Source: Vibrio hippocampi
Lineage (GTDB): Bacteria > Pseudomonadota > Gammaproteobacteria > Enterobacterales > Vibrionaceae
NCBI RefSeq assembly: GCF_921292975.1
Contig: NZ_CAKLCM010000004.1
Location: forward strand, 1-43,202
DNA length: 43,202 bases
Reading direction: 5' to 3'
Under the pieces are notes generated by a model. The model was not told the origin of the DNA, searched no databases, and worked only from the letters and a program-made list of their open reading frames with translations. Positions 4,982 through 32,601 of this stretch are shown in pieces. Numbering within the stretch: the first letter of the stretch is position 1; each line of letters begins with the position of its first letter. Both the position numbers and the translations under genes were made by a program.

Positions 4982-5086
4982 ACTGGCCCCGGCTTAGGGT
5001 GCCAACCAACCAAACAGACCATAAACGGCCGGGAGGGTGACACCCAATAAGATAAGCTCTCTCAATTTCTTTAATTCATTAATTCT
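4982..5086. other. Intergenic segment beside integrase, possible attP/regulatory DNA
   Basis: The segment contains a near-perfect palindrome GGGTG-A-CACCC (5035-5045) and one copy of the AATTAAAGA-type gene-border repeat (5064-5089). It is a reasonable place for attP or an int promoter, but no core site can be recognised from one genome. Confidence 0.3.
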
Positions 5087-5248
5087 TTACAGTTCAAATT
5101 CAGCATCAAGGCGACGCTGTTCGAGAATGTCCTCGATACGGCGGCGACACTGGACCTTGCCCGGGTTCACTTTCACGATGGGAATGGTGCGAGACTGGTC
5201 ACGCTGTTTGTGGTTCAAAAGATGACGTTCATCAGAGGTTCTATACAT
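5087..5248 (-). CDS. Small charged protein downstream of Q, 53 aa
   Basis: The ATG overlaps the end of the Q gene by 8 bases, indicating translational coupling. The product is highly charged, with a C-terminal helix carrying the pattern R-R-R-I-E-D-I-L-E-Q-R-R-L. This resembles the end of small uncharacterised gammaproteobacterial proteins with an R-x-I-E...R-L motif; that resemblance is tentative. The position, last in the Cro-Q operon, is one where phages often keep small regulators or host-takeover proteins. Function unknown. Confidence 0.6.
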   Translation of the reverse strand: MYRTSDERHLLNHKQRDQSRTIPIVKVNPGKVQCRRRIEDILEQRRLDAEFEL

Positions 5249-5621
5249 TGCCTTGGGTCCTTTTCTTGGTTAATGCCTTGATCACGTAATCGCGCGCTTT
5301 CTTCAAGCGGCGCTTATAGGTGGGCAAGCTGATCCCGACTCGGAGCGCCCGTTTAAGCTGGGTATCGTCGTTCATGTTGCCAACGGCCCCGTACTCCATG
5401 CGAAAGGTGGTTGCAGCTGCCTGATCTTCTGCCGCCAAACGTAACACCGCCGCCTCAACATCGGCCTCGATGCAATCTAAAACAGGGCCACCACCGCCAC
5501 CGCCGCCGAACACCCCTTGACACTCGATCAGCTTGCCCAAAACAGATTGGCCACCGGGCACCAGTGCGCCCTGGTGAACCCAGCGCGCCCATTGGTCGAA
5601 TATTTCATCCCAGTTAGCCAT
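5241..5621 (-). CDS. Q-type antitermination protein
   Basis: The 126-residue product resembles the Phage_antitermQ family. It has an N-terminal W-D-x-x-F-D-x-W-A-R-W segment, a central A-A-T-T-F-R-M-E-Y region and a C-terminal HTH of the form L-x-x-A-L-x-V-G-I-S-L-P-T-Y-K-R-R-L-K-K-A-R. Such proteins load on RNA polymerase at the late promoter and allow read-through of terminators. Unusual is a run of seven glycines (residues 39-45) where homologues usually have a short loop. It lies at the end of the Cro operon, as expected for delayed-early Q, and the late genes contain several internal terminators it could suppress. Confidence 0.75.
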   Translation of the reverse strand: MANWDEIFDQWARWVHQGALVPGGQSVLGKLIECQGVFGGGGGGGPVLDCIEADVEAAVLRLAAEDQAAATTFRMEYGAVGNMNDDTQLKRALRVGISLPTYKRRLKKARDYVIKALTKKRTQGNV

Positions 5622-6798: not shown

Positions 6799-6936
6799 TG
6801 ATCAAGGCGTGGCATTTTCCGCAAAATGTGGTATTTTGTGGTAATATAAAGCTACGAAAGCCGTGATTAACGAATTAAAGAAATCACTAAAACGTTAACC
6901 AGGTAACAAAAAAGCCCATCAGACAGGGTGCAAAGA
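6799..6936 (+). promoter_or_regulatory. cI promoter region
   Basis: Two further imperfect palindromes, ATTTT-CCGC-AAAAT and CAAAAT-GTGGT-ATTTTG (about 6813-6838), may be weaker operators. TAATAT at 6843-6848 could be a -10 for cI. A gene-border repeat of the AATTAAAG type lies at 6866-6884. AGGG (6925-6928) is the likely ribosome-binding site for the ATG at 6937. Confidence 0.4.
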
Positions 6937-7596
6937 ATGAAATCAGACATAAAAGAAATCATCGGCGACCGATTAAGAGAGCGCCGACTTTTAAAGAATT
7001 GGACCGCTCGGGAAGCCGCCGAAGCGGCGACCCGCGTTGCCCCTGAGAACATCAGTACCGGGCGGTGGCAGAACTGGGAATGTGCTCAACGTAGCCCAGG
7101 CGTCGAAATGTATCCGTATTTGGCCAAAGTGCTCGACACTACGCCGCAATACTTATCCGGTTGGTCAAACGAGCCTGGGATCGGGGTCGAAACCAATAAA
7201 TACGTGGTGGCCAACGTCAACCAGGAGCAAGGCGGCAAAGATGACGAACTCGCGTTCAACGTCGAAGCGTTAAAACGCCACGGCCTGAGTGAGCATAACT
7301 TAAAGCTCATCACCGCCCCTGACGACGCGATGCACAAAGAATTTAAGCGCGGCGATTTGCTGCTCATCGATAAAGGCGCCAACGAGATCACCGGCGCGGG
7401 TATCTATGCCTTGCAAACCCAACACGGCGACCTGTATGTTCGCTATGTGCGGCGCGACATTGGGTCCGGTTACAGCGTCTACGCCGACGACGAACGCCAC
7501 GCCCCAACACAGCAATTTAGTGAAGAAGACTTCGCCAGCAAACTGACCGTGATCGGCAAGTACGTCTTCAAAGGATGCTGGAATCTAGATCAGTAA
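6937..7596 (+). CDS. CI-like repressor, S24-type fold without catalytic dyad
   Basis: The 219-residue product has an N-terminal HTH domain (residues about 8-75) and a LexA/CI C-terminal domain (about 120-219). The conserved G-D-S-M loop is D-D-A-M, putting Ala at the Ser nucleophile position (A131), and the catalytic Lys of the V-K-R motif is Arg (R169). Both catalytic residues are therefore missing, so RecA-stimulated self-cleavage should not occur; dimerisation could remain. The start at ATG 6937 is preferred over GTG 6928 because of the AGGG at suitable distance. It faces cro divergently and should maintain lysogeny by binding 6773-6793. Induction would then need an antirepressor. Confidence 0.88.
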   Translation: MKSDIKEIIGDRLRERRLLKNWTAREAAEAATRVAPENISTGRWQNWECAQRSPGVEMYPYLAKVLDTTPQYLSGWSNEPGIGVETNKYVVANVNQEQGGKDDELAFNVEALKRHGLSEHNLKLITAPDDAMHKEFKRGDLLLIDKGANEITGAGIYALQTQHGDLYVRYVRRDIGSGYSVYADDERHAPTQQFSEEDFASKLTVIGKYVFKGCWNLDQ

Positions 7597-7605
7597 CACA
7601 CGCTT

Positions 7606-7634
7606 TAAAAGCGCGGCCTTGTCGCGTTTTTTTA
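7606..7634 (+). terminator. Terminator after the CI-like gene
   Basis: A GC-rich stem with CGCG arms flanked by A and T runs (AAAA...TTTTTTT) lies just after the repressor stop. Confidence 0.6.
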
Positions 7635-7640
7635 CGGCAC

Positions 7641-7708
7641 CATTAACAACATTTTGCAGTAACAAATAACAACGATACAGCAAAACGAACAACGTCTAAG
7701 GAATTACC
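7641..7708 (+). promoter_or_regulatory. Region with three direct AACAAC half-sites
   Basis: AACAAC occurs at 7645-7650, 7668-7673 and 7688-7693, about two helical turns apart. They match half of the CI/Cro operator and lie directly before the next plus-strand operon. No well-spaced -35/-10 pair is obvious. Confidence 0.4.
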
Positions 7709-7978
7709 ATGCACGGCGAACTATCGTTGATCCACGTCAACACACCGACCGAACTGCGCATCGTACAGCGGCAGCAAAAACAAACCGTCCAATCGGCGAC
7801 CGCCGACTTACTGGCGACGGCGTGTCTTTTGGAAAAAGCACTCGATGGCAATCTGGACGATGAAACCCACGCGCTGATCAATGCGGCGTATTTTCAGGTT
7901 AACCAGGTACAAACCACGTTCGACAAGCTGGTCGCCCAAATCGATAACATCCAACTGGAGGACAAATCCCGTGAGTAG
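7709..7978 (+). CDS. Hypothetical helical protein, 89 aa
   Basis: Not recognised. The sequence is mostly amphipathic helix (T-A-D-L-L-A-T-A-C-L-L-E-K-A-L, then a Gln/Val-rich coiled segment). First gene of the plus-strand early block. It overlaps the next gene by 8 bases, so the two are probably translated together. Confidence 0.65.
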   Translation: MHGELSLIHVNTPTELRIVQRQQKQTVQSATADLLATACLLEKALDGNLDDETHALINAAYFQVNQVQTTFDKLVAQIDNIQLEDKSRE

Positions 7979-8989: not shown

Positions 8990-9343
8990 ATGGACGCGAT
9001 AACCCAACATGACGTGAGTTTAATGAGCGCGTTGTTACTGGATGGCATGGACCTCGACACCATCGGCGATAAATTCGAGATCCCGCCCTCTGACGTCATA
9101 CAACACATTTACCCACCGAAGCAGTTTATCCCGGCATCACTGTTCGAAAGCCGGTCACGTCGAGGCACGGTTCGACTCGGTGAAGACTGCATCGAGAAAC
9201 GTTGCTCGCGCTGCCGTCAATTTTTCCCTATCGCCTCCGAGTTTTGGCACAACTGCCGCAACAACCCGGACGGTTTTCTCGGTTGGTGCCGTGCTTGTGA
9301 AATCGACCGCGTCAATGCCAGACGTAAAGAATTAAAGAAATAA
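8990..9343 (+). CDS. Zinc-ribbon protein with N-terminal HTH-like segment
   Basis: The start follows a strong AAGGGGG site. Residues about 70-105 carry C-S-R-C ... C ... C-R-A-C, a four-cysteine zinc-binding arrangement, followed by a basic tail. The first 50 residues (with D-T-I-G-D-K-F-E-I-P-P-S-D-V-I) look like an HTH. It is probably a DNA-binding accessory factor. Its last codons (K-E-L-K-K-stop) are built from the AATTAAAG-type border repeat. Confidence 0.7.
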   Translation: MDAITQHDVSLMSALLLDGMDLDTIGDKFEIPPSDVIQHIYPPKQFIPASLFESRSRRGTVRLGEDCIEKRCSRCRQFFPIASEFWHNCRNNPDGFLGWCRACEIDRVNARRKELKK

Positions 9344-9364
9344 CGAATTAAAGAGACTCACCAA

Positions 9365-11332: not shown

Positions 11333-11548
11333 ATGCTTGTATCTCAGAAAGTAATAGATGGAATGGAAGCCAAAGGGTTCTATATGGCTGAAGGGGCGGC
11401 GGTTCTTAATGATGTTGTAGTCGTCGAACTTCGACACCCTTTCAGGTCAACGCGAGCTATGACACTAAAAACTCAAGAGTCAGTGAACGTATTCAATAAC
11501 GAAGTTTCACCAGGGGCTTGGGCTGTTTTTCGCAAATATGATAACTAA
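11333..11548 (+). CDS. Hypothetical protein, 71 aa
   Basis: Not recognised. A small protein with alternating hydrophobic beta-like segments (V-L-N-D-V-V-V-V-E-L) and a W-A-V-F end. It is preceded by AAGGGG and lies in line with the neighbouring plus-strand genes. Confidence 0.6.
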   Translation: MLVSQKVIDGMEAKGFYMAEGAAVLNDVVVVELRHPFRSTRAMTLKTQESVNVFNNEVSPGAWAVFRKYDN

Positions 11549-11558
11549 GGATCAACAC

Positions 11559-11879
11559 ATGGAACCATTAAAAGTTAACTGGCTTAGTGCTTGCCCTCGA
11601 TGTAATCACGAAGGGCCGCACAATGTTGAAACAAACAGCGCGAACCCTGACCTATTAAACGAAGGTGATGTCGTTACGTGCAGACAATGTAACCAGGGCG
11701 GAGTGATCGAGTTAGTAGAAGCCGGGATAGTTGAATGTTACTGGGCCGAAGATGATGGCCATTACTGCCAATGTGATAACCCAGATTGTGGCAACTGGTT
11801 TACGGTCTCCGAAATCGGAGCCACTTGTCAGGAATGCAATAAAGGCTCAATGCAGCCGCAAGACGTCGAACCCTACTAA
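11559..11879 (+). CDS. Protein with multiple zinc-ribbon Cys pairs, 106 aa
   Basis: Cysteine pairs C-P-R-C, C-R-Q-C, a C...C-x-C group followed by N-P-D-C, and C-Q-E-C suggest two zinc ribbons in tandem. ATG 11559 is taken over ATG 11538, which lies inside the previous gene. The protein is acidic. It is the last gene before a strong terminator. It may be a nucleic-acid-binding or protein-interaction module; function unknown. Confidence 0.7.
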   Translation: MEPLKVNWLSACPRCNHEGPHNVETNSANPDLLNEGDVVTCRQCNQGGVIELVEAGIVECYWAEDDGHYCQCDNPDCGNWFTVSEIGATCQECNKGSMQPQDVEPY

Positions 11880-11888
11880 CCCACCTCA

Positions 11889-11912
11889 AAAGCGGGCCCG
11901 TCCCGCTTTCTT
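11889..11912 (+). terminator. Terminator ending the plus-strand early block
   Basis: A perfect 8-bp stem AAAGCGGG/CCCGCTTT with a 5-base loop is followed by a T-rich tract. It insulates the par promoter from upstream transcription. Confidence 0.85.
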
Positions 11913-11945
11913 TCTTTATTTCTTTAATTATTTAATTCTTTCTTA

Positions 11946-11974
11946 TTTACATTCAGGACTTTTCGTCCTATTAT
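11946..11974 (+). promoter_or_regulatory. par promoter with AGGAC-N5-GTCCT operator
   Basis: -35 TTTACA (11946-11951), 17-base spacer, -10 TATTAT (11969-11974). The palindrome AGGACTTTTCGTCCT (11955-11969) fills the spacer. The same 15 bases are found in three minus-strand promoters near 18.1, 18.7 and 19.3 kb. Confidence 0.85.
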
Positions 11975-12023
11975 CTCATCACGCGTTAAAGAATTATTTA
12001 ATTAACGAAAGGGATAACAACCA

Positions 12024-12665
12024 ATGGGATACAAAATCGCAGTAGTACAACAAAAGGGTGGCGTGGGTAAATCCACTAATTGCCGCAACCTGGCAGCGGC
12101 TCACGCGGGCTTTGGCTGGGATGTAAAAATCGCCGACCTCGATGTCAATCAATCAACCAGCTTCACCTGGCATAAACGCCGCCTTGCGGCCGGAGTCGAA
12201 CCGGTTGTCGCTGTAGAGATTTTCGGCAGTGCCAGCCAGGCTCTAAAGCAAGCGGATAACTACGACTTGTTTATCTTCGATGGCGCTCCAATGGCTAACC
12301 GTGCAACGCTTGAGGTTGCGCTAGTGTCTGACCTGGTTGTCATTCCAACAGGGCTAGGCTTAGACGATATGGAGCCTTGCGTCATTCTGGCCAACGACCT
12401 AGTTAAAAATGGTGTAGACCGAAGCAAAATTGTTTTCGTGTTCTGCCGAACCACTGGCAGCGATGCCGAACTCCAATACGCTATCGACTACATGGATCAA
12501 ACTCCATACTTCACCGTACCGCACCCACTACCGGAAAAACCGTCTATTCGCGGCGCGCACGATCAGGGCCTTGCTGCTATTGAGTGCAAGTTCAAAGGCC
12601 CGAGAGAATCAGCCGAGCGAATGACTCAGGCAATCATCGATAGACTTAACGAATTAATGAATTAA
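12024..12665 (+). CDS. parA: ParA partition ATPase (type Ib, ParF-like)
   Basis: The deviant Walker A motif K-G-G-V-G-K-S-T (residues 11-18) is at the N-terminus, and Walker-B-like strands (L-F-I-F-D-G-A-P) follow. At 213 aa without an N-terminal HTH it belongs to the small type Ib ParA group, in which a short ribbon-helix-helix protein is the partner and autorepressor. It segregates the plasmid form at cell division by oscillating or forming gradients on the nucleoid. It is the first gene after the operator-bearing promoter; its last codons (N-E-L-M-N-stop) come from a border repeat. Confidence 0.93.
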   Translation: MGYKIAVVQQKGGVGKSTNCRNLAAAHAGFGWDVKIADLDVNQSTSFTWHKRRLAAGVEPVVAVEIFGSASQALKQADNYDLFIFDGAPMANRATLEVALVSDLVVIPTGLGLDDMEPCVILANDLVKNGVDRSKIVFVFCRTTGSDAELQYAIDYMDQTPYFTVPHPLPEKPSIRGAHDQGLAAIECKFKGPRESAERMTQAIIDRLNELMN

Positions 12666-12686
12666 AGATTTAAAGAGGCTTTCAGG

Positions 12687-12923
12687 ATGGCATTAGAAGC
12701 ACCTAAAAAACCCAAAGCTAACCCAAAAGGCAAGCCGCCAACAGGTAACACACCACCAAATGGCCAAGAGAACAGCAAAAAGGGAGAAACAGCTCCGCTT
12801 AACTTCAAACCTGATAAAGAGTTCGTAAAAGAGTGGAAAGTCTACTGTGTAACGAACGACATTTCTCAAATTGACCAATTCAAGAAAATGTTCGAGTTCT
12901 GGAAAGAACATCACGGCGGGTAA
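12687..12923 (+). CDS. Small centromere-binding partner of ParA (ParG-like RHH)
   Basis: The first 35 residues are a flexible, Lys/Pro/Asn-rich tail. Residues about 37-76 (beta strand L-N-F-K-P-D, then two helices with a turn at T-N-D-I-S-Q-I-D) fit a ribbon-helix-helix fold. This is the organisation of ParG/ParB partners of type Ib systems. It should bind DNA as a dimer, link the centromere to ParA and repress the par promoter. It is the simplest candidate for binding the AGGAC-N5-GTCCT palindromes, but this is inference. Confidence 0.75.
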   Translation: MALEAPKKPKANPKGKPPTGNTPPNGQENSKKGETAPLNFKPDKEFVKEWKVYCVTNDISQIDQFKKMFEFWKEHHGG

Positions 12924-13007
12924 TCCGTCAGAAGGGAACGCCGGACGGTTGAAGTATCTCACCCCTACAACCGCCGGCATCAACAACACAACCAATGGGA
13001 TTTAATC

Positions 13008-13175
13008 ATGTTGCAAGCTAATAATACCCTCTCGGGCGCTATGCGTCTATGTGACCTTATGTATCAACCAGCCGACCAGGTGATCGAGTACCTGAAAGAT
13101 AAGCCCGAATTTATGGGCGAGGCTATCGCAAAATTGTGTTACCAGGAACTAGCGAGGCAAGGGGGCCATTCATGA
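13008..13175 (+). CDS. Small hypothetical protein, 55 aa
   Basis: Not recognised. The ORF starts at ATG 13008 and its stop overlaps the ATG of the next gene (ATGA, 13172-13175). The product is helical with several Met and Cys residues. Coupled translation with the following Cys-containing protein suggests a common process. Confidence 0.5.
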   Translation: MLQANNTLSGAMRLCDLMYQPADQVIEYLKDKPEFMGEAIAKLCYQELARQGGHS

Positions 13176-13447
13176 ACATAGCCAGGATGAGCCTACCCGA
13201 TACGTGCTTTAGTTGTCAGCACTACAAGCAAACAGGCTGGAAACACGACCAGTTCGCGCCAAAGGTGGATAACTACGGTTTCAGCATTGATCCGAGAAAA
13301 CAACGTTATGGCCAATGTACCAGGAACAACGCGGAGGTATTTTGGAATGAGAAGTGCCACTTATACACCCAAGACACCGACATCGATGTCCATCCCTGCC
13401 CGAAGCGGCCCGAACCGTTAGAGCCGCGTCAGGAATCACTGTTCTAA
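13172..13447 (+). CDS. Hypothetical cysteine-containing protein, 91 aa
   Basis: Start ATG 13172 is fixed by the ATGA overlap with the upstream gene. It has C-F-S-C near residue 12 and further Cys at C-T-R, K-C-H and H-P-C-P, arranged like a metal-binding site (such as a CxxC...C...C zinc or iron-sulphur site). Small proteins of this type occur next to phage and plasmid genes, but I cannot name the family. It ends at a shared convergent terminator. Confidence 0.6.
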   Translation: MNIARMSLPDTCFSCQHYKQTGWKHDQFAPKVDNYGFSIDPRKQRYGQCTRNNAEVFWNEKCHLYTQDTDIDVHPCPKRPEPLEPRQESLF

Positions 13448-13451
13448 AAAG

Positions 13452-13475
13452 AAGCCCCGAAACCGGGGCTTTTCC
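13452..13475. terminator. Bidirectional terminator between convergent genes
   Basis: Stem AAGCCCCG/CGGGGCTT with an AAAC loop, A-run on one side and T-run on the other, between the plus gene ending at 13447 and the minus gene ending at 13476. Confidence 0.85.
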
Positions 13476-13652
13476 TTACTCTCCATTCTCGACCAGTGCC
13501 GCGACATCAATCCTTAAGCCTTTGAGTAAAGCCGTCGCACAAGACATTTCATGAACGACACAGTCGCCCGTATTGGTTAGATCCTCCATTACTTCTAACA
13601 GAGCCGCCATTTGATTCAGCTTTTTGCTGATTATCGTTTTTTTCCTTTCCAT
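13476..13652 (-). CDS. Small hypothetical protein, 58 aa
   Basis: Not recognised. The start ATG 13652 follows no strong Shine-Dalgarno I can see. The product has a basic N-terminus and an amphipathic helical remainder (L-N-Q-M-A-A-L-L-E-V-M-E-D-L). It is transcribed divergently from the HTH gene at 13841, a typical arrangement for a small regulated partner (toxin, antitoxin, or Cro-like), which remains speculation. Confidence 0.55.
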   Translation of the reverse strand: MERKKTIISKKLNQMAALLEVMEDLTNTGDCVVHEMSCATALLKGLRIDVAALVENGE

Positions 13653-13840
13653 TTAAAAACATACCTTTCCAACTGCAATATATGTTTTGTCATCACTATC
13701 ATTGGTGCGACCAGTAGAATATGCAGTTACGCATACATGCTGTAAACAGCAATGGAAGAAACAGTCCTATACTTACTGATAAACGACAAAAATAGTCCTA
13801 TCGAATGAGACGTAGGTCTAAATAATCAGGAGGGGAATCG
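13653..13840. promoter_or_regulatory. Divergent promoter region of the 13.6/13.8 kb gene pair
   Basis: AGTCCTAT occurs twice as a direct repeat (13763-13770, 13794-13801), 31 bp apart. GTCCTA matches the half-site of the 15-bp operator found in four other promoters. A strong AGGAGGGG ribosome-binding site (13829-13836) precedes the ATG at 13841. Confidence 0.5.
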
Positions 13841-14167
13841 ATGTCACATGAACCACTAATCCACGCAATAAAGGAGCGCAGGGAGGCGGCGGGACTCACT
13901 CAGCTACAAACCGCCGACATGATAGGGGTATCGCTAAAAACCTATCAGCGTATCGAACGGGGCGAAACCGAAATGAAAATGTCACACTATCGAATCTTGA
14001 TCGAAAAACTCAAGACAACGGATCTCGATATTTCTCTCGATATGTTGGGCCTAGACAAAACCACGCCCTGGGACGTTGCAGCGGCAGCAAGAACGCTACC
14101 GCCAGAAGTGAGAACGGTACTAGTATCCCTGCTCATGATGATCTACAGAGACAAAACATCAGAATAA
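13841..14167 (+). CDS. XRE-family HTH regulator, 108 aa
   Basis: Residues about 6-60 form a Cro/CI-type HTH (I-K-E-R-R-E-A-A-G-L-T-Q-L-Q-T-A-D-M-I-G-V-S, then Y-Q-R-I-E-R-G-E). The remainder is a short helical dimerisation domain. It is transcribed divergently from a 58-residue gene. Its promoter has two GTCCTAT half-sites, so it may bind the AGGAC-N5-GTCCT operators; the RHH partition protein and the HTH protein at 18687 are rival candidates. Confidence 0.8.
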   Translation: MSHEPLIHAIKERREAAGLTQLQTADMIGVSLKTYQRIERGETEMKMSHYRILIEKLKTTDLDISLDMLGLDKTTPWDVAAAARTLPPEVRTVLVSLLMMIYRDKTSE

Positions 14168-14485
14168 CTATAATTTTTCGATTTCTTTCATAACACCGAT
14201 CAGTTGGCTTAACACCTCTTTATAATCTGAACCAGAATTCAACCTTTCGAACAACAGCTCGACCGACGCGCCGGCGCGATGAACATCCTCGATCACTCGC
14301 TCGACCGCAGCCACATTATTCGCCAGCTTATCCAAACGCCAAACCGCAACCACATCACCCTGTTTTAGTTTATCGATAACCAGGGGAAGATCATCACCGA
14401 ACCGGATGTCATCACAACCGAAATCATTTAAAGCCTTTAGCTGCATAGCTAAATCATTATCACGAACCGCATAGCCATATTTCAT
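14168..14485 (-). CDS. Resolvase N-terminal domain protein without catalytic Ser
   Basis: The 105 residues align with the catalytic domain of serine recombinases: the start K-Y-G-Y-A, a middle G-D-V-V-A-V-W-R-L-D-K-L and a final E-R-L-N-S. The nucleophile Ser of the Y-A-R-V-S motif is Asp-like (Y-A-V-R-D), and the conserved D-R-L-x-R is D-K-L-x-N. The C-terminal DNA-binding HTH is absent. It should not recombine DNA. It may be a domesticated regulator or dimerisation partner, or a decaying remnant, although the frame is intact. It converges on the HTH gene, ending one base from its stop. Confidence 0.75.
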   Translation of the reverse strand: MKYGYAVRDNDLAMQLKALNDFGCDDIRFGDDLPLVIDKLKQGDVVAVWRLDKLANNVAAVERVIEDVHRAGASVELLFERLNSGSDYKEVLSQLIGVMKEIEKL

Positions 14486-14506
14486 ATTATTCTTATTCCC
14501 TGTTAG

Positions 14507-14520
14507 CGTGACGCGTCACG
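14507..14520. promoter_or_regulatory. Palindrome CGTGA-CGCG-TCACG
   Basis: A perfect 14-bp palindrome 21 bases upstream of the resolvase-like gene. The same CGTGA-N4-TCACG arrangement occurs twice at 1323-1336 and 1355-1368. Likely a binding site, regulator unknown. Confidence 0.4.
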
Positions 14521-14573
14521 CCGCTTAATTTTGTCACATAGTAAATCAGACACGTATCACAGGAAATGACAAA

Positions 14574-14599
14574 GGCGGCGTTTTTGGAATCAAGCCGCC
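14574..14599 (-). terminator. Possible terminator after the lipoprotein gene
   Basis: GGCGGC/GCCGCC arms with a 14-base loop; only a weak T tract follows on the minus strand. Confidence 0.4.
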
Positions 14600-14623
14600 C
14601 CATAAACCACGAACGCGGCCGAA

Positions 14624-14965
14624 TTAACCCTTCGACCAACCGTTCAATTTTACACAATCAGCGACCAGGTAATTAATCTCACCATTGCTAACTGGCAAAG
14701 CCGAATTAATGCACCCCATTAAAACGGTGGCATTTTCTTTTAGCGCTTCGCCTTCGGTAAGGTCAGCAGCATTTAAGAACCCCTTATCCTGGAGCGACTT
14801 CAACCAATGACCAGCCGTCCCGAGCTGGGTCGGCTGATCCGCTTCGGTCCAGCCTTTACGGTCAAGCCCGACCGAATACCCCTTATTAAGCCATTCTGAA
14901 TTTGGGTCACTGCACCCAACCAAGCCAACGACGGCCGCAACCGCCAACAAGGACAATTTACGCAT
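14624..14965 (-). CDS. Small lipoprotein, candidate lysogenic-conversion gene
   Basis: An N-terminal signal peptide (M-R-K-L then a hydrophobic stretch) ends in a lipobox L-V-G-C (Cys18), so the mature protein should be lipid-anchored. The mature part (about 95 aa) has two more cysteines and no recognised domain. It has its own gene borders: a candidate terminator downstream and a long non-coding region upstream. This is the usual look of a moron gene. Superinfection exclusion or surface modification is a reasonable guess. Confidence 0.75.
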   Translation of the reverse strand: MRKLSLLAVAAVVGLVGCSDPNSEWLNKGYSVGLDRKGWTEADQPTQLGTAGHWLKSLQDKGFLNAADLTEGEALKENATVLMGCINSALPVSNGEINYLVADCVKLNGWSKG

Positions 14966-15291
14966 TATTTAACCTTTTAATGATTATGGAGTTTTTCAGG
15001 GTATCCGATCCGGCTGGGCCTGGTCGAGAAGATCACCGCGAAAACGAAATCCACGCGGCACAAATTCGGTAGTCATTATGCCCATTATGTTAAATAGCTG
15101 ATTTTAGATAGCATTACGCCAGTTTTGGCGGATTGAACGCACCAAGCCGCCAAAATTGACGGTTAAGCAGTGATCGAGGTGTGATTTTTGATGTTGTAAA
15201 TTTGTTTCAATTTGGCGAGGTTTTCGGCTGGAAATTTGGCCGGATGATTTGGCGGCCGATTTGCGTCGAAACCGCCAAAAGATCAAGTTTT
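14966..15291. repeat. Non-coding region with TTTGGCGG iteron-like repeats
   Basis: The core (A/T)TTTGGC(G)G occurs on the plus strand at 15123-15131, 15211-15218, 15233-15243 and 15247-15255, and inverted (CCGCCAAAA) at 15147-15155 and 15272-15280. It follows the dnaB operon end. It may be an origin-like, ssi or regulatory region; the upstream part should hold the lipoprotein promoter. The 60-codon frame here looks accidental. Confidence 0.5.
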
Positions 15292-15705
15292 CTATTCTAC
15301 GCCCATCTTATCTAAGCAATACTGTTCAAATTGATATAGCGCCTCATCATCGAAACGACCCGAATCGCGCAAGCTCATCATTTCCATGAACAGGTGACGG
15401 TTGTTAAAGTCCAGGTTCACGTAATCGTGTAGATGAGCCACGCGCGGCGTTTCTGTTCTTCGATACCAGTTGCTAAATGCAGTTGCGAAGAATAAGCCGG
15501 CGCGGCCGTCTTCTTCTATCTGTTCACGAATATCGGCTAAAACATCTTCCTGTGGTCGAGCGTTTGAGATTGTTTTAGGCTCAACCACAAGTGAGCGAAC
15601 AGACTCTAAGATTTTCTGTTGTTGTAGCTTGCTGTATTGCGGGAATTGCTTCTCTAGCTGTTCGATGTACTCTTTCAGCATTGATTGTTCAAATGTCGTA
15701 TTCAT
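15292..15705 (-). CDS. Hypothetical protein following dnaB, 137 aa
   Basis: Not recognised. A helical, Gln/Glu-rich protein with a possible N-terminal coiled segment (K-E-Y-I-E-Q-L-E-K-Q-F) and an acidic C-terminus. Separated from dnaB by 53 bases that include a perfect 7-bp inverted repeat (CCTCTAG/CTAGAGG, 15736-15756). Position suggests a replication accessory role, such as a helicase loader or inhibitor, but the size and sequence do not prove it. Confidence 0.6.
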   Translation of the reverse strand: MNTTFEQSMLKEYIEQLEKQFPQYSKLQQQKILESVRSLVVEPKTISNARPQEDVLADIREQIEEDGRAGLFFATAFSNWYRRTETPRVAHLHDYVNLDFNNRHLFMEMMSLRDSGRFDDEALYQFEQYCLDKMGVE

Positions 15706-15758
15706 ATACTAGCCTTACTATGTGTTATTAATCGACCTCTAGCGGCCGACTAGAGGAT

Positions 15759-17135
15759 TTAATATTCATCAAATGATGAACCAGCAAAGTTATCAAAGCG
15801 GGAGTATTGCCCCTGGAACGTGAGCCTAACCGTTCCGATCGGGCCGTTCCTTTGCTTACCGATGATGATCTCCGCGGTGCCTTTGTCCTTGCTGTCTTCG
15901 TGATACACCTCATCACGATAAATAAACATGATGAGATCGGCGTCTTGCTCAATGGAACCGGATTCCCGCAAGTCTGAATTTATTGGCCGTTTATCTGGGC
16001 GGTTTTCCAACGTTCGGTTTAATTGGGACAACGCAACCACGGGGACATTGAGTTCTTTTGCTAACGCTTTTAATGACCGGCTTATCTCCGCAATTTCTAG
16101 CGTTCTGTTGTTCTGCAAGCCTGGCACCTGCATTAATTGAAGATAATCAACCATAATCATCGACAAGCCGCCATGTTCGCGGGCCATACGACGCGCTTTA
16201 ACTCTGAGTTCAGTCGGAGTAATGCCGGAACGGTCATCAATAAAAATATTGTTCCTTTCCATTAAGTGGCCAGTAGCCGAAGCAATTCGCGCCCAATCTT
16301 CATCATCGAGCTGGCTCGTTCTTATCTTGGAAAGCTCAACACGGGATAATGACGATAGCATTCTCATCATTAATTGTTCGGACGGCATTTCCAAAGAAAA
16401 AATTAATACAGGCTTATCATTCTCCATCGACACGTTTTCACATATGTTCATGGCGAACGTTGTTTTTCCTTGAGAGGGCCGAGCCGCGACGATAATTAAA
16501 TCGGAATTCTGTAAGCCGGCAGTTTTTTTATTTAAATCCATAAAACCAGTCGATAAGCCGGTCACGCCATCGATAGCGGTTTTATTTAATTCTTCCATGC
16601 GGTCGATGGTTTTCTCTAACACCGAACGCGCGCTTTGCATACTATCGACGCTCACCGAATGCTGATTCGAGATCGCCAGGACCTTACTTTCTAACTCGTC
16701 GATAATGTCCGTCGAGGTCGCGGCCTTTGAGTCGTAAGCCGAAGCGACGATTTCATTACCTACCGAAATCACATTCCTTAACACCGCTTTCTCTCTTACG
16801 ATGTCAGCATAAGCGGTTATGTTTGCTGCGCTGGGCGTGTTCTTGGCCAAATCAGCCAAGTAAGCAAAGCCGCCAACATCTTCTAATGATCCTTGCTTTT
16901 CTAATAGTTCTGACAACGTAACCAGATCAAGCGGTTGACCGCCTTCAAGTAACTTTCTGGCGACCTCAAAAATAATGCGGTGATAACGTAGATAAAAATC
17001 AGGCCCCGCCACTTTGTCGGACACATCATCCCAACGGCCATTATCAAGTAGTAACCCACCTAAAACGGATTGTTCAGCTTCCATCGAGAACGGCGGCTTT
17101 TTTAAAGCTTCTTCATTTTGCATTTGTCTTTTCAC
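15759..17135 (-). CDS. dnaB: Replicative DNA helicase DnaB
   Basis: The 458-residue product has the DnaB N-terminal domain (about 15-115, with S-V-L-G-G-L-L-L-D), a linker helix and a RecA-like helicase domain. The Walker A A-R-P-S-Q-G-K-T is at 218-225, and the Walker B (I-M-V-D-Y-L-Q-L-M) near 323-331. The DnaB arginine finger region (Q-R-N-G-P-I-G-T-V) is present. It unwinds DNA ahead of the fork. An own helicase makes the element less dependent on the host. It sits in a minus-strand operon starting at 18051 under a 15-bp operator. Confidence 0.95.
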   Translation of the reverse strand: MKRQMQNEEALKKPPFSMEAEQSVLGGLLLDNGRWDDVSDKVAGPDFYLRYHRIIFEVARKLLEGGQPLDLVTLSELLEKQGSLEDVGGFAYLADLAKNTPSAANITAYADIVREKAVLRNVISVGNEIVASAYDSKAATSTDIIDELESKVLAISNQHSVSVDSMQSARSVLEKTIDRMEELNKTAIDGVTGLSTGFMDLNKKTAGLQNSDLIIVAARPSQGKTTFAMNICENVSMENDKPVLIFSLEMPSEQLMMRMLSSLSRVELSKIRTSQLDDEDWARIASATGHLMERNNIFIDDRSGITPTELRVKARRMAREHGGLSMIMVDYLQLMQVPGLQNNRTLEIAEISRSLKALAKELNVPVVALSQLNRTLENRPDKRPINSDLRESGSIEQDADLIMFIYRDEVYHEDSKDKGTAEIIIGKQRNGPIGTVRLTFQGQYSRFDNFAGSSFDEY

Positions 17136-17140
17136 AACCT

Positions 17141-17479
17141 TTAATCAAAAATGGTCACTTGCTCGTCATCAACGGGCATCACGTCCAGTTCTTCGCCTGT
17201 CCGTTCTCGGTAAACCTTGGCGGCCTGGTGACGGCCGGGGCGAGTAAGAGTAGCGGCCAAACTTAAATCTTTAGCGCGGGACAGTTCAACGCACCCCTTA
17301 TCAGATAAGGCGTGAAGCCCCTTTCTAAAATTCGATGCATCGAGCTCACCCTCGCGAGACTGGGAAATCATGGTCCGCATTTTGGCCACTGGTATCGGCC
17401 CTGTAAATTGTTTGGTTTCCAAAAGCGCCAGGATAAAAAGGGCGTCATTCTGGTTTTTCGAAAATCGGGTTTTCTTCAT
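17141..17479 (-). CDS. Hypothetical winged-helix-like protein, 112 aa
   Basis: Helical N-terminal two thirds with a pattern compatible with a small winged helix (D-A-L-F-I-L-A-L-L-E ... F-R-K-G-L-H-A-L-S-D-K-G-C-V-E-L), then an acidic tail. It ends 5 bases before dnaB begins, so they are co-transcribed. It could load or recruit the helicase or regulate the operon. Not identified. Confidence 0.6.
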   Translation of the reverse strand: MKKTRFSKNQNDALFILALLETKQFTGPIPVAKMRTMISQSREGELDASNFRKGLHALSDKGCVELSRAKDLSLAATLTRPGRHQAAKVYRERTGEELDVMPVDDEQVTIFD

Positions 17480-17508
17480 TTCTTAATCACCTCAAGAGTG
17501 AATAATAA

Positions 17509-17685
17509 CTAGCAATCATAGGGCTGGCGATTACTCTTTATTTGTTCTTTGCACTTATCCACCTTTTGAGTGGATAAGATGGGTACATCAGCCACAACCA
17601 GATCACAAAGCCGGTTAAACTCCGCTAGTGAAATCGGCTGTTCCCATCCCTTACTTAACTCGATGTGAAACGCTTCCTTTCTCAT
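17509..17685 (-). CDS. Small hypothetical protein, 58 aa
   Basis: Start ATG 17685 is taken, since the longer frame begins with TTG directly after the previous stop. The gap holds a perfect GGCCGCC/GGCGGCC hairpin (17701-17719), perhaps an attenuator or mRNA processing site. Function unknown. Confidence 0.5.
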   Translation of the reverse strand: MRKEAFHIELSKGWEQPISLAEFNRLCDLVVADVPILSTQKVDKCKEQIKSNRQPYDC

Positions 17686-17727
17686 GGCCACCGCTCCAAA
17701 GGCCGCCGCAAGGGCGGCCCGTATCAA

Positions 17728-18051
17728 TTAAAACAAGCGGGTATCTAATCCGGTAATGTCAGTAAAGACTGCTTGCAAGGTATCGCCATAAACGCCTGAT
17801 TGGTTGGCCAGCTCTTTAAACTCATACTTGCGAGGCATCCACTTAAGACCGAGAACGGTGTAAGTGTCTGACGGGTTCAGCACTACCTGAACCTTATTAA
17901 TTCCGTCTTTCACATAGTGACGGGTGCGAGGTAAGTCGAACTGGAGGCCGTTCTCGATAGCAACCATGTTTTTAGCGCCAGTCATAGCCATGAAACGACC
18001 GCCGCCTAGTTGTTCAAGAATGGTTTTTGCAATGATTTGATTGTTAGTCAT
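17728..18051 (-). CDS. Conserved phage/plasmid hypothetical protein, 107 aa
   Basis: The pattern I-L-E-Q-L-G-G-G-R-F-M-A-M-T-G-A-K-N near the start and I-T-G-L-D-T-R-L-F at the end recurs in a small protein common in phages and plasmids (recalled, not searched). No function is established. It is the first gene of the dnaB operon, with its ATG immediately after an approximately 83-bp leader repeat carrying the operator promoter. Confidence 0.7.
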   Translation of the reverse strand: MTNNQIIAKTILEQLGGGRFMAMTGAKNMVAIENGLQFDLPRTRHYVKDGINKVQVVLNPSDTYTVLGLKWMPRKYEFKELANQSGVYGDTLQAVFTDITGLDTRLF

Positions 18052-18132
18052 CGTGATTTCTCTCGGTTATGGCCTTGGCACCTTGCCCGGCCTTCGAGAT
18101 AAATATTAGGACTTTTCGTCCTAACTTGCAAG
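18049..18132 (-). repeat. Promoter-leader repeat, copy 1 (dnaB operon)
   Basis: An approximately 83-bp unit nearly identical to 19269-19348 and closely related to 18592-18674. On the minus strand it holds -35 TTGCAA (18126-18131), a 17-base spacer with the operator AGGACTTTTCGTCCT read on the plus strand (18108-18122), and -10 TAATAT (18103-18108). A GC-rich leader with a GGCC-GGCC hairpin and a GAGAGAAA ribosome-binding site leads directly to the ATG. Confidence 0.85.
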
Positions 18133-18184
18133 TGTTATTTTCTTTAATTCTTTATTTCTTTACGTTTAACAGTTCACCAGGCAC

Positions 18185-18207
18185 AAAAAAACCGCCTCAA
18201 TCGGCGG
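18185..18207 (-). terminator. Terminator of the 18594-18220 gene
   Basis: Minus-strand stem CCGCC/GGCGG with a 6-base loop followed by seven T. Confidence 0.8.
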
Positions 18208-18219
18208 CTAACTATGAAT

Positions 18220-18594
18220 TCAACTTGGCAAAACCCAAGGGCGCTTGTACTCCCCAGATAATAATTTATCTACCGAAGTGTTCATCGGCGCAAGGCCATT
18301 CAGAAATGCGACATAAAATCGCCAGATCTTGGCTTTTTGAATTTCCTTTATCTTAAGTTGGGCTCGCACATCAGCATCTGACATAAGACCGCCAATTTCT
18401 TCGCCCTTATCCTCATCAGGCCAATAGCGGTGTTCAAAACCCAGCCACTCAGATTCAGACATACAATACCGATGAATCAATTCATCGCGGCTCAATAACG
18501 GATGATGATCTACCGGATGGAATCCCCCGCCAGTTCTGGCGAAATAAGCACAAAAATCACGGTCATTTAATGCCTGGCGAATAAGCTCTTTCAT
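18220..18594 (-). CDS. Hypothetical protein, 124 aa
   Basis: Not recognised. An acidic protein rich in Trp, His and aromatic residues, with a possible HTH or helical bundle in the middle (L-S-R-D-E-L-I-H-R-Y). It is a single-gene unit with its own operator promoter (copy 2) and its own terminator, so it is co-regulated with dnaB and parA. Confidence 0.6.
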   Translation of the reverse strand: MKELIRQALNDRDFCAYFARTGGGFHPVDHHPLLSRDELIHRYCMSESEWLGFEHRYWPDEDKGEEIGGLMSDADVRAQLKIKEIQKAKIWRFYVAFLNGLAPMNTSVDKLLSGEYKRPWVLPS

Positions 18595-18674
18595 CGATAT
18601 TTACCTCGGTTTTGGCCTTGGCAACTAGCCCGGCCTTCGAGATAAATATTAGGACTTTTCGTCCTGATACGCAA
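18592..18674 (-). repeat. Promoter-leader repeat, copy 2
   Basis: A more diverged copy of the same leader. Operator AGGACTTTTCGTCCT is at 18651-18665; -35 TTGCGT and -10 TAATAT again have 17-base spacing. Differences are mostly outside the operator and the GC-rich leader core. Confidence 0.85.
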
Positions 18675-18686
18675 GCATTACTTTCT

Positions 18687-18998
18687 TTATTTCGTTAATT
18701 CTTTATTTTTCCAGATACAACCAAAGCCGGCGCACTCCGCCAGAATCGCCCAGGCGGCGAACGGGATCCGCTGCATGTTCGTTTTTCTGCCTTCCTGTTT
18801 AGCCTTTTCCACCTCGACAGGATCAAACGCCGCCCATTTACGCACTGTACGGCCGTCAGAGATGCCCACTAGGGCCGCGGCTTCACTCCCGGTCAATTCA
18901 CAGCGTTTAAGCATTTCACGCACTTCTGCGCCCGTTGGTTGCGCCCAATCATCACCAAACGGGACCAATGTTTCAGGGCGGATTGTTTCAAGTTCCAT
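18687..18998 (-). CDS. HTH DNA-binding protein, 103 aa
   Basis: A helix-turn-helix is seen at about residues 24-52 (V-R-E-M-L-K-R-C-E-L-T-G-S-E-A-A-A-L-V-G-I-S-D-G-R-T-V-R-K-W), followed by a helical segment with I-P-F-A-A-W-A-I-L. Similar proteins occur on plasmids and integrative elements. It is the second gene after promoter copy 3, so if it binds the operator it would be autoregulated. Its last codons are the border repeat (K-E-L-T-K-stop). Confidence 0.75.
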   Translation of the reverse strand: MELETIRPETLVPFGDDWAQPTGAEVREMLKRCELTGSEAAALVGISDGRTVRKWAAFDPVEVEKAKQEGRKTNMQRIPFAAWAILAECAGFGCIWKNKELTK

Positions 18999-19037
18999 AA
19001 TTCACCAGTTTGGGCGGACACGCCGCCCGGTTTTATC

Positions 19038-19271
19038 TTATGCGTTTACCAGGGCAGCAATGCCGCGCCAGCTCTTATAATTTTTCTCTACTTCTTCCAA
19101 CGTCGCGAACTCTTTGATTCCCAACCCACGATACGCGCGATGGCTTGCGTTATCAGTGTGCATTTGCCAGTGAGTTCCCCACACATCGGCAACACGTGAC
19201 AGTGTCATTTTGTTACCGCGACTCTCTAAATAAAAAGTAGTTTCGCCAAGTTGTTGAATAACGTTTCTCAT
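19038..19271 (-). CDS. Hypothetical protein, 77 aa
   Basis: Not recognised. A small alpha/beta-looking protein (first strands T-T-F-Y-L-E; later W-Q-M-H-T-D), no membrane part. The ATG lies directly behind promoter-leader copy 3 and the gene is followed after 39 bases by the HTH gene, so they form an operon. Confidence 0.6.
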   Translation of the reverse strand: MRNVIQQLGETTFYLESRGNKMTLSRVADVWGTHWQMHTDNASHRAYRGLGIKEFATLEEVEKNYKSWRGIAALVNA

Positions 19272-19348
19272 CGTGATTTCTCTCGGTTATGGCCTTGGCA
19301 TCTTGCCCGGCCTTCGAGATAAATATTAGGACTTTTCGTCCTAAATTG
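19269..19348 (-). repeat. Promoter-leader repeat, copy 3
   Basis: Nearly identical to copy 1 over about 80 bp. Operator at 19328-19342; -35 TTGCAA, 17-base spacer, -10 TAATAT. Confidence 0.85.
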
Positions 19349-20067
19349 CAACCATTCTTTTTTGCGCCCAGAAGCGCACCCACAGAAGCTGACACGCGAA
19401 GATACTAGCCCCGCAGGGATAAGCGATGCGCTTGCGCAAGCGAAGCACCAAGCCGCTCGACGTTGTTTGATAGACCACGGAACTATATCGGCGCGGTTAG
19501 CTGCACAGGACATCGTTAAATCTCGCCTTACCCTCCTGCTAGACCTCGCGAAGCGAAAGAAGGCTAGGTGATGAGGTTGAATTGAACACAAAAGGTTAAG
19601 TATTGGGTCCACTGGATAATCGTAATTCTCGAAAGTATGACGGTCGGATGACAAAAGAAATGTTCAGCGCTGCCAGCTATAGCACTGAACGTATTATTTT
19701 TGCGTTCACTTGATGCTGGCAGTTGGGGCCCGTTAAATTGCTTAACGCTGATCTTATTGTTAGTACTGAATCTAAATAGCAATTTAATGGGATGTACCTT
19801 TATATCTGTAGCAAAGCGAAAGAGATAATAAGCCTCGCCTTTATGGCGGGCTTATATCCTTCCCTTTAGGGAAGCGGTTAGTTCAGGGCTTAGTTTCGAG
19901 GTTATTTTTTATTTAGCCGGCGATCGCGGACAATGGAGGGTGATAACGGTAGGAAATCAGACGAGAAACAGGATCCGGCGGATCATTTCTGTTTGTTTTT
20001 TGAACAACTTTAACCGCCAGGTACGGCAAAGCCTCCGCCATCAAGCGGATTCAAATAAAAAGAGGGG
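19349..20067. other. Non-coding region downstream of repA, candidate origin
   Basis: About 720 bases without a credible gene. It contains a perfect palindrome CGCTTGCGCAAGCG (19429-19442), nested inverted repeats 19662-19671/19681-19690 and 19670-19677/19715-19722, a 14-bp inverted repeat with one mismatch (19729-19742/19778-19791), a hairpin at 19828-19855 and TTCCC-TTTA-GGGAA (19860-19873). In FII/I-type plasmids the origin and single-strand initiation signal lie downstream of repA, so this is the expected place. A DnaA-box-like ACTGGATAA (19611-19619) is weak. Confidence 0.55.
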
Positions 20068-21114
20068 TTATGTTCGGGTTTCTAGGATGGCCAATAGCAA
20101 GGCGTCAAACTCAGGGCCGTTCGTTAGCCCATGCTCGGCTTTGATTTGATTTTTAGCCTGGTATACATAAACAGGCGGTAATTGTCCCTGTAACTGAATG
20201 AGGCGCTTTTCCGTATCACTACGTTGCGACTGTTCACGTTGTTCACGTTGTTCTCGTTGCTCACTTGCGCGCTTCTCAGCCTCTTTTAAGCGATGGTTTG
20301 CGTCCATCACTCGCTTAGTGTGCTTGTTCTCGCCGGTAAACTCTCGCTTGATACGGGCCAATAGATTACGCAATGAAGGGCGATCCAAAGAAGCAATACG
20401 ATCAGACTCAGCCTGGCGCAATAATTCAGCTTGGCGCTTCTGCTTGGCCGTTTTAAGTAAGCCGTTTTTCTCCTGCCACTTACGAGCCATTGAAAGCATC
20501 GAACGAGTGTCGTCCATCGACAAGCCAAACCCTTTAAAAAAGTTAGGGCGGAAAAAGATCCGCTTTGCTTTGTTAGTTTTGCTTTCCTTGTCGAACTCAC
20601 GAACAACGACAATCATTTCCGCCGCTTCCATGTCATCAATCGCACCATGAACGGGATCGCAAGACTTGCGGCCGTGGCGATATTGTCCGCCCTGACCGTC
20701 ATAGCCTGGTTCGTATTCGTGGAGCTGGCCGATCATCTTCGCGAGTTCTTCCACGCTGGCCTTTACCTCAAACAAATAGTTTGAGTCCGGGCAATAATCG
20801 GCGCGGTAAATCATAGCTCTAACCAGTGCATCGAGGGTTTGTTCACGCTCAAGGCGGATCGAGGTTCGGCGCGGGGCAATGTGCTTGGTCTTCCAGGTGC
20901 CGTCCGACAATTTACGGCGCTTAAGAGTGGCACCGTCTTTACGCAGCTTGCGCATAAAACGGTTTCGGTTCCAGTTATGGCCAGATAGAAGGGCATCCAA
21001 TCGCTTAGCGATAGGATGGTTAGCCATCGGAATGTCAAATTGTGGGGTATATCTACGCCAGCCGCTGCGGTCATCCTGCCACGCTGACGCGTTACTAAGT
21101 CCAATTACGCTCAT
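20068..21114 (-). CDS. repA: Plasmid replication initiator, RepA (IncFII/IncI-like)
   Basis: From ATG 21114 the protein has 348 residues. It is rich in Arg/Lys, with a winged-helix-like arrangement (N-W-N-R-N-R-F-M-R-K-L-R-K-D-G; later a D-P-V-H-G-A-I-D-D-M-E-A-A-E-M segment) and a long charged helix with the tandem Q-R-E repeat near residues 280-300. The pattern agrees with the RepA group of FII/I-complex plasmids as I recall them, and the leader carries an antisense-RNA structure typical of them. RepA would bind the origin downstream of its gene and recruit DnaB. The family assignment is by pattern, not search. The ribosome-binding site is weak. Confidence 0.75.
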   Translation of the reverse strand: MSVIGLSNASAWQDDRSGWRRYTPQFDIPMANHPIAKRLDALLSGHNWNRNRFMRKLRKDGATLKRRKLSDGTWKTKHIAPRRTSIRLEREQTLDALVRAMIYRADYCPDSNYLFEVKASVEELAKMIGQLHEYEPGYDGQGGQYRHGRKSCDPVHGAIDDMEAAEMIVVVREFDKESKTNKAKRIFFRPNFFKGFGLSMDDTRSMLSMARKWQEKNGLLKTAKQKRQAELLRQAESDRIASLDRPSLRNLLARIKREFTGENKHTKRVMDANHRLKEAEKRASEQREQREQREQSQRSDTEKRLIQLQGQLPPVYVYQAKNQIKAEHGLTNGPEFDALLLAILETRT

Positions 21115-21260
21115 TTTTTGATTGCTTTTTCGCTGTAAGGCTTGCAGCAACCGGGCACACGAAGTAAACTTAGTCTTGTGTTTTAGGGTTTCTTCTAAAT
21201 TCTGTCGCCAAAACAAATTTAGAGAAGTGACTAGTTTACTTCCTGACCCGAATCTTGAAC
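21115..21260 (-). promoter_or_regulatory. repA leader with long hairpin
   Basis: The outer arms 21161-21175 and 21229-21242 and inner arms 21190-21202 and 21215-21227 form a long stem-loop. On the minus-strand (mRNA) side the loop reads GUUUUGGCGACAG and thus contains UUGGCG, the loop motif of I-complex and FII rep mRNAs. A GTG-started 21-codon frame overlaps the repA start and may be a coupling leader peptide (speculative). I found no CGCC pseudoknot partner close to the repA start. Confidence 0.6.
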
Positions 21261-25740: not shown

Positions 25741-26145
25741 CGGCTTGTTCCTGCGCCTTTTCGTGGCGCTGTAATGCGATTTCGTGCCAGCGCATTAACT
25801 CGGCCAGCGACATGCTGGCGGTGGCGCTGGGATTAAAGCCGGTGAATACCAGGAAAATATCCGCTTCGGCTTCCATCACGTCGGCCGGAACGGGGTTTAT
25901 TCCGTGAAAAAACCGACCACCTCCGTTTGCACCGCAACCAGATCGGACGGCTTCAACATATCGAATTCGTTGGCGGTAATGTCACTGATACGCGGCACCA
26001 GTTGACGGTGGGTGTTGATGTCCATACGCAAGATCGAGAACATTTCTAAACCGCGGAGGCTACCAGTGTCCGGCTCACGCAAATTGATTTCAGTGATCTC
26101 ATTGTCACCACGTTTAAGGGACTTTTTCAGTTCAACTTTAGCCAT
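25721..26145 (-). CDS. E': gpE+E' tail assembly chaperone, made by -1 frameshift
   Basis: The gpE frame contains the slippery heptamer T-TTT-TTC (plus-strand 25906-25912) seven codons before... its stop at 25897. After slipping -1 the frame continues to 25721 and encodes A-D-I-F-L-V-F-T-G-F and then M-S-L-A-E-L-M-R-W-H-E, the signature of the P2 gpE' extension. The fusion would have about 141 aa, close to the 142 of P2 E+E'. The frameshift product normally chaperones the tape measure. Confidence 0.9.
25897..26145 (-). CDS. E: Tail assembly protein gpE, P2-like
   Basis: The start is ATG 26145 (the frame is open to 26181 but includes a terminator). The 82 aa match the gpE pattern (K-S-L-K-R-G-D-N-E-I-T; L-V-P-R-I-S-D-I-T). 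Zero-frame partner of the frameshift fusion, between tube protein and tape measure. Confidence 0.9.
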   Translation of the reverse strand: MAKVELKKSLKRGDNEITEINLREPDTGSLRGLEMFSILRMDINTHRQLVPRISDITANEFDMLKPSDLVAVQTEVVGFFTE

Positions 26146-26160
26146 TGCTTTCGCTCCAAA

Positions 26161-26190
26161 TAAAAACGCCCTGCGAACCACGCAAGGCGT
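26161..26190 (-). terminator. Terminator between tube protein and gpE
   Basis: Minus-strand stem ACGCCTTGCG/CGCAGGGCGT (one mismatch), 5-base loop, followed by TTTTATTT. Confidence 0.75.
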
Positions 26191-26229
26191 AAAGAATTAA
26201 AGATTTAATGAATTAACGAGAATTGAGAT

Positions 26230-32577: not shown

Positions 32578-32578
32578 T

Positions 32579-32601
32579 TCGTTAATTCTTTAATTCGTTA
32601 G
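32579..32601. repeat. Gene-border repeat of the AATTAAAG type (example copy)
   Basis: On the minus strand the stop codon of the PAAR gene begins a run TAACGAATTAAAGAATTAAC followed by the ATG of gpW. Similar AT-rich runs occur near 5064-5089, 6866-6884, 9326-9354, 11906-11948, 11988-12010, 12649-12676, 18141-18162, 18681-18706 and 26190-26218, nearly always at gene ends. Confidence 0.7.

Follow-up and report, generated by a model that had tools for sequence, protein, structure and literature searches.

KorC acts as a global repressor in conjugative plasmids, RP4 and RA3 among them. In RK2/RP4, according to excerpts of two papers (PMC12365149, PMC7314908), its targets are klcA and kle, while passages of two others (PMC7414963, PMC9455977) describe the KorC of RA3, a plasmid of incompatibility group (Inc) U, as a global regulator across replication and stability. 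For pOXA-48 (IncL), a KorC site is predicted in the promoter of the korC unit, between its -35 and -10, as stated in an excerpt of PMC12365149. Here we analyze a 43,202-base stretch of Vibrio hippocampi DNA (the window, which is the whole of host contig C4), a myovirus-type phage-plasmid in which one 15-bp palindrome occupies four promoters. The analysis indicates that this palindrome is very probably a KorC-family operator, that the protein encoded at 18687-18998 is its predicted reader, and that the four promoters would form one regulon. This reading is built on the sites, the promoter geometry, the protein family, co-occurrence, covariation between operator arms and recognition helix, and covariation in a transcript leader.

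The four exact copies of AGGACTTTTCGTCCT (11955-11969, 18108-18122, 18651-18665 and 19328-19342) were confirmed, and at all four promoters the palindrome lies in a 17-bp spacer between -35 and -10, upstream of the genes first described: parA with its ribbon-helix-helix (RHH) partner, the dnaB operon, a 124-residue gene, and a unit containing a helix-turn-helix (HTH) gene. By sequence, the parA promoter (11946-11974, + strand) consists of TTTACA at 11946-11951, the spacer, and TATTAT at 11969-11974, and its predicted KorC-type operator (11955-11969, +) reads CAGGACTTTTCGTCCTA with flanks. The three leftward promoters (- strand; TTGCAA-17-TAATAT, TTGCGT-17-TAATAT and TTGCAA-17-TAATAT) serve the 107-residue gene and dnaB unit (18103-18131, operator 18108-18122), the 124-residue gene (18646-18674, operator 18651-18665), and a 77-residue gene together with korC (19323-19351, operator 19328-19342), the last suggesting autoregulation. 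The arms AGGAC/GTCCT are present at all four sites, with the outer T or A replaced on one side in two of them. The window has no further match to the 15-mer at up to three mismatches, and the 4.59-Mb host genome contains no exact copy besides these four; base composition predicts 8.8e-5 exact 15-mers and 0.04 occurrences of AGGAC-N5-GTCCT. Our shuffles of the window allowed three mismatches (mean 0.95 matches; four or more in 2 of 100) and are therefore no test of exact copies.

The predicted reader (18687-18998, - strand; 103 residues, recognition helix 49-56, GRTVRKWA) is 41-45% identical to proteins annotated as IncP KorC, and residues W18, P21, R50, R53, W55, I78, W83, A90, G91 and I95 are invariant in an alignment of 12 sequences. 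The window sites match the KorC-type operator form TAGGNC-N5-GNCCTA between -35 and -10, and IncP and IncU plasmids carry the palindrome in the same promoter position. Among the first 13 relatives, the palindrome was present in nine loci, eight of which encode a homologue of this protein, compared with none of the other four; in the remaining one, L008, the fragment stops next to the site. Because the palindrome itself had led to five of the 13, whole records were examined as well: KorC is encoded in 9 of 17, and AGGAC-N5-GTCCT occurs in 8 of these 9 versus 0 of the 8 without KorC. For the 12 of these records that had been retrieved through ParA or RHH, the corresponding counts are 4 of 4 and 0 of 8, while ParA, RHH and a CI-type gene are present in KorC carriers and non-carriers alike.

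These counts discriminate among the three readers named in the original prediction, of which the HTH protein at 18687 stands, being KorC-like, while the RHH protein at 12687 and the Xre protein at 13841 (gene 13841-14167) fall away on co-occurrence. An RHH protein acting like ParB, for which the palindrome would be both a dispersed centromere and a site of par autorepression, would be in keeping with the copy at the parA promoter and with the regulation of promoters by RHH ParB proteins through centromere repeats (described in part of PMC9499535). This is nevertheless a very unlikely reader, because eight records (L058, L064, L065, L067 and L222-L225) keep parA and RHH without any AGGAC-N5-GTCCT; in addition, IncP and IncU plasmids have the palindrome together with KorC although their ParB is annotated as the ParB/RepB/Spo0J type, and RHH carriers share 8-bp arrays instead of the palindrome. 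Still less credible is recognition by the Xre protein or by the CI-type repressor (gene at 6928): both are of a DNA-binding type and encoded on the same element, but the L066 stretch, which contains the palindrome, lacks an Xre homologue, L058 and L064 have one but lack the palindrome, and the CI-type gene does not follow KorC. Co-occurrence thus speaks against the palindrome as a centromere, as well as against RHH or Xre as its reader, and we reject these readings: the palindrome tracks KorC and not parA-RHH, and the proposed dispersed centromere is better matched by the 8-bp arrays. In sequence terms, the predicted one-repressor regulon of maintenance genes is supported, with one operator type spanning four promoters of maintenance units.

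The three leftward copies do not count as independent, since each sits in a similar 83-bp cassette extending from -35 to ATG (pairwise identity 72, 81 and 72 of 83), beyond which the flanks have diverged (14-34 of 60 positions identical upstream, 15-23 of 60 downstream). It could accordingly be asked whether the four copies are mere duplicated promoter cassettes with no dedicated regulator. We regard this as most improbable: the parA copy has other flanks, is reversed relative to its promoter and lacks the leader, and relatives keep the arms while the center changes (L061, AGGACGGATAGTCCT; L066, AGGACTTTACGTCCT). The parA operator is found at the matching place in L062, L063 and L088, and with a different center in L061; in two loci that lack korC, Aliivibrio phage H905 and L064, the parA promoter occupies the same place but reads AGTATTTTTCGTTCT, whose arms are no longer matched. 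L066 keeps intact arms at a single site, upstream of its korC homologue. Among 296 genomes of the host's family, the 83-bp cassette pattern turned up in one, the host's own, and the exact 15-mer was found in 53 IMG/VR stretches, where those outside the named loci have unrelated flanks. KorC itself was detected in 8 of the 296 genomes at E≤0.001 (strongly in the host and G180, at E 3.7e-9 in G027, and near the limit in five), and tblastn gave no match to KorC in the phages collection. In G180, which belongs to the host's genus, the KorC match has almost the coordinates of that in Vibrio sp. HDW18.

Across the family, in counts that include any effect of kinship, operator arms vary together with the KorC recognition helix. 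Several observations weigh against the KorC assignment. A strict scan found no AGG palindrome at 53 of 120 KorC-family loci, or for 32 of 64 distinct KorC cores, and some loci have imperfect arms. Cores with residue T in the helix fall under three arm types, 11 of 36 having none, and residue Q accompanies AGGTC in two cores, AGGGC in one and none in 13. The motif does recur at equivalent promoters in KorC carriers and is absent from non-carriers, as predicted, but parA is a target with intact arms in only five of nine carriers viewed (window, L061, L062, L063 and L088); its site is degenerate in L033, and none is present in L066, L097 or L228. Finally, the window protein has an insertion forming an extra helix (60-69) after the HTH, which the aligned IncP proteins lack. 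Its closest solved folds are the Aca1/AcrIF24 HTH proteins, with many other HTH folds at lower Z. Separately, we observed an operator-like AGGACTTTTCGTCCC without leader just 5' of the korC homologue of L061 (Vibrio sp. HDW18, 16345-16359), one intact-arm place inside a gene of L088, and one loose, unmatched TAGG-like place in L225; L095, L096 and L103 have no KorC-type palindrome.

If the palindrome is the KorC operator, a KorC dimer would bind the AGGAC/GTCCT arms in the spacers of the four sigma-70-type promoters and thereby block RNA polymerase, repressing parA-RHH, the unit from the 107-residue gene to dnaB, the 124-residue gene, and KorC's own unit with the 77-residue gene. Upon entry into a cell free of KorC, repression would presumably be released and expression of these units would rise. 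Three of these promoters would yield transcripts that begin with a conserved hairpin leader.

This leader is found on the - strand at 18049-18098 (a hairpin, followed by Shine-Dalgarno and ATG), 18592-18641 and 19269-19318. A 7-pair hairpin is common to 35 distinct leaders from phage-plasmids and IncP and IncU plasmids: 99.6% of the 245 cells pair, compared with at most 46.1% in slid registers, and the covariation score is 0.201 versus 0.157 in shuffles (reached by 0 of 500). Three pairs show changes on both sides, a number also reached by 24 of 500 shuffles, and three pairs are invariant. Single leaders fold moderately better than their shuffles (z from -1.2 to -3.6 for five leaders). IncP leaders plausibly form a second hairpin, at the Shine-Dalgarno, which is weaker in phage-plasmids. 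A covariance model gave 38 strong matches in 24 sources, 36 of which adjoin a KorC operator and two of which (Sphingobium) do not; these are mostly training sequences, the others including both R751 promoters and one more in L088. A wider search of 54 sources gave 47 matches, part of them outside the training set and the weakest doubtful. No strong match was obtained in L058, L064, L065, L067, L095, L097 or L103, while L096 has two leaders without the palindrome. In a scan with the leader pattern, 2 of 12 loci (L229 and L235) look like coding coincidences. Rfam gave no match to the leader, either in window positions 11500-20200 at E≤1 or in L221, L092, L202 and L207 at E≤0.1. We also considered whether the leader could be a DNA operator, which is less likely because its arms are asymmetric (one versus two bases between inner and outer stem) and its pairs change through G-U intermediates, one pair being GC in 20, GU in 13 and AU in 2 leaders of the set. 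At 21354-21426 of L088 (a V. campbellii plasmid), a degenerate operator and leader with no ATG at the usual place look decayed.

The 8-bp (octad) arrays, recognised independently of the palindrome, are the better candidates for the centromere, which on sequence grounds is more likely to consist of these arrays read by RHH. The window contains nine WTTCKTTA arrays of period 8, each of 2-4 units and, by our gene list, between genes or at gene ends, whereas 100 shuffles yielded none. Three adjoin palindrome promoters: one 5' of the parA -35 (11911-11942, +), one just 5' of the dnaB-unit -35 (18139-18162, +), and one just 5' of the -35 of the 124-residue gene, overlapping the 3' end of korC (18682-18705, +). 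The others lie at the parA-RHH junction (12647-12670, -), between the integrase gene and gene 5241-5621 (5066-5089, +), 45 bp ahead of the CI-type (S24/HTH) repressor gene (a pair, 6868-6883, -), before the gene at 9365 and overlapping the 3' end of gene 8990-9343 (9325-9356, -), between genes 25897-26181 and 26230-26745 (26190-26213, -), and between genes 32212-32577 and 32598-32885 (32577-32600, +). The partition locus itself has type Ib features: a ParA of 213 residues without an N-terminal HTH, its ATPase match starting at residue 4, and repeat arrays near the par genes at 11911 and 12647.

We consider it likely that these arrays form a dispersed centromere bound by RHH that also regulates nearby promoters, which is compatible with KorC as reader of the palindrome. 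A count free of any consensus gave most runs at period 8 in 8 of 10 loci, although period 8 tied with others in L065, L067 and L225 and yields no run in L067 and L215. Either the parA promoter or the junction between parA and RHH has an array in seven of the eight records that lack KorC, and likewise in all nine KorC carriers viewed (window, L061, L062, L063, L033, L066, L088, L097 and L228); the E. coli locus L097 has another unit sequence at the same array places. No WTTCKTTA array was found in L065 or L225, and none was called at parA in L224. In eight phage contigs, an octad array instead of the palindrome precedes the leader promoter. There is a precedent in pSM19035, where the copS, delta and omega promoters overlap 7-bp repeats to which omega binds (part of PMC9499535). 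On the other side, the structural model of the RHH protein is poor (predicted local distance difference test score 58, two helices), its best sequence match in the PDB, an RHH structure, is weak (E 0.42), and the arrays could instead be RepA iterons or an AT-rich site of another regulator. A KorC relative was found in seven of the eight octad-leader contigs, and ParA with RHH in the two stretches that reach them; within 1.5 kb of korC, six of the seven gave no match to a KorC operator and one (L227) gave an imperfect one. The KorC relatives of L227, L228, L230-L233 and L236 have the helix RKIRKW, and octads replace the palindrome at their leader promoters.

In other phage contigs (L226, L237 and L202), a RadC-like gene is preceded by the KorC operator with its leader, and korC lies close downstream. 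The RadC-like gene matches Pfam RadC in L226 and L202, and the arrangement is a phage parallel to klcA-korC; in L202, korC adjoins genes for a large terminase, a DnaC-like loader and an O-like initiator. No account of this leader, or of KorC in phage-plasmids, emerged from our literature search, which did not cover the KorC paper on RA3 (Plasmid 2013, 70:131) and the 1990 korC paper; this is no proof that such accounts are absent. The term match in PMC10609457 is, in the portion concerned, an author's name, and in excerpts of klcA/kleA papers "leader" refers to other transcripts.

The joint presence of protein, operator and leader in phage-plasmids and phages suggests that a control cassette passes between both kinds of element. 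More tentatively, with the odds somewhat against it, KorC on the palindromes and RHH on the nine octad arrays as centromere may form a two-protein circuit that couples segregation complexes to the transcription of the genes for partition and replication, in the manner of RK2 and pSM19035 though with unrelated components, while the leader may be an undescribed cis-acting RNA element of IncP, IncU and phage genomes, used with either operator. Assigning the palindrome to KorC names a predicted binding site and predicted target genes; the covariation of arms and helix is a first step toward reading the specificity of a KorC protein from its sequence. The octad arrays offer a specific candidate for the dispersed centromere of a phage-plasmid, and the leader, an RNA element, has a defined hairpin.

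The remaining features place these sites in their element. The window proteins scanned include a myovirus sheath, tape measure, capsid and terminase, lysis proteins, a tyrosine integrase, a CI-type repressor with an S24 domain, ParA and DnaB. Among its relatives are the circular Aliivibrio phage H905, several IMG/VR contigs, and plasmids from Vibrio sp. HDW18 and V. campbellii LJC011. Profile matches identify the short ParA (12024-12665, +) and the DnaB-type replicative helicase (15759-17135, -), and PHROG matches identify the small RHH-like ParA partner (phrog_6024; 12687-12923, +) and the 107-residue gene that leads the dnaB unit (phrog_9437; 17728-18051, -). The 124-residue gene behind the second leader promoter (18220-18594, -) and the 77-residue gene leading the korC unit (19038-19271, -) have no Pfam or PHROG match. 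A weak RepA-like match lies at 20068-21216 (NCBIfam RepA_IncFII_LM, E 3.4e-10, under the cut-off; Pfam IncFII_repA, E 0.0066), and the ∼700 bp between this gene and the korC promoter, apparently non-coding, may hold an origin. In H905 (PP986400.1), gene 7438-7806, labelled ParM, overlaps the homologue of the window protein 17141-17479, and the label is doubtful.

It is instructive to compare this locus with the systems it resembles. Aca1 and AcrIF24 are phage HTH proteins linked to anti-CRISPR genes; as the closest folds to the window KorC, Aca1 having been solved on palindromic DNA, they are likened to it by fold and not by operator sequence. In N15-type centromeres, dispersed inverted repeats accompany the partition genes, whereas the window palindrome accompanies KorC. 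The omega/parS system of pSM19035 likewise combines a short ParA and an RHH partner with short direct repeats at several promoters (part of PMC9499535); its units are of 7 bp and number 7-10 per array, compared with 8 bp and 2-4 in the window, where binding is predicted. pOXA-48, likened by description and not by sequence, has one KorC site versus four in the window. RA3 has leader and palindrome in promoter spacers, as in the window, but its arms are TAGGCC with helix RTF and its korCp is constitutive, whereas the window korC is predicted to be autoregulated. IncP-1 KorC and its operator O_C offer a further parallel: likewise a small HTH repressor, a site between -35 and -10 with the same leader after it, and several maintenance promoters. 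In R751 (IncP-1; 12,000 of 53,423 bases compared), the palindrome arms are identical to those of the window. Apart from the extra helix after the HTH, the difference from IncP-1 lies in the targets: klcA and kle were not recognised among the first genes of the window units (parA, the phrog_9437 gene and two without Pfam match), though one of these could be an unrecognised kle relative, and the predicted KorC regulon of this phage-plasmid comprises instead parA-RHH, the dnaB unit and two further genes.

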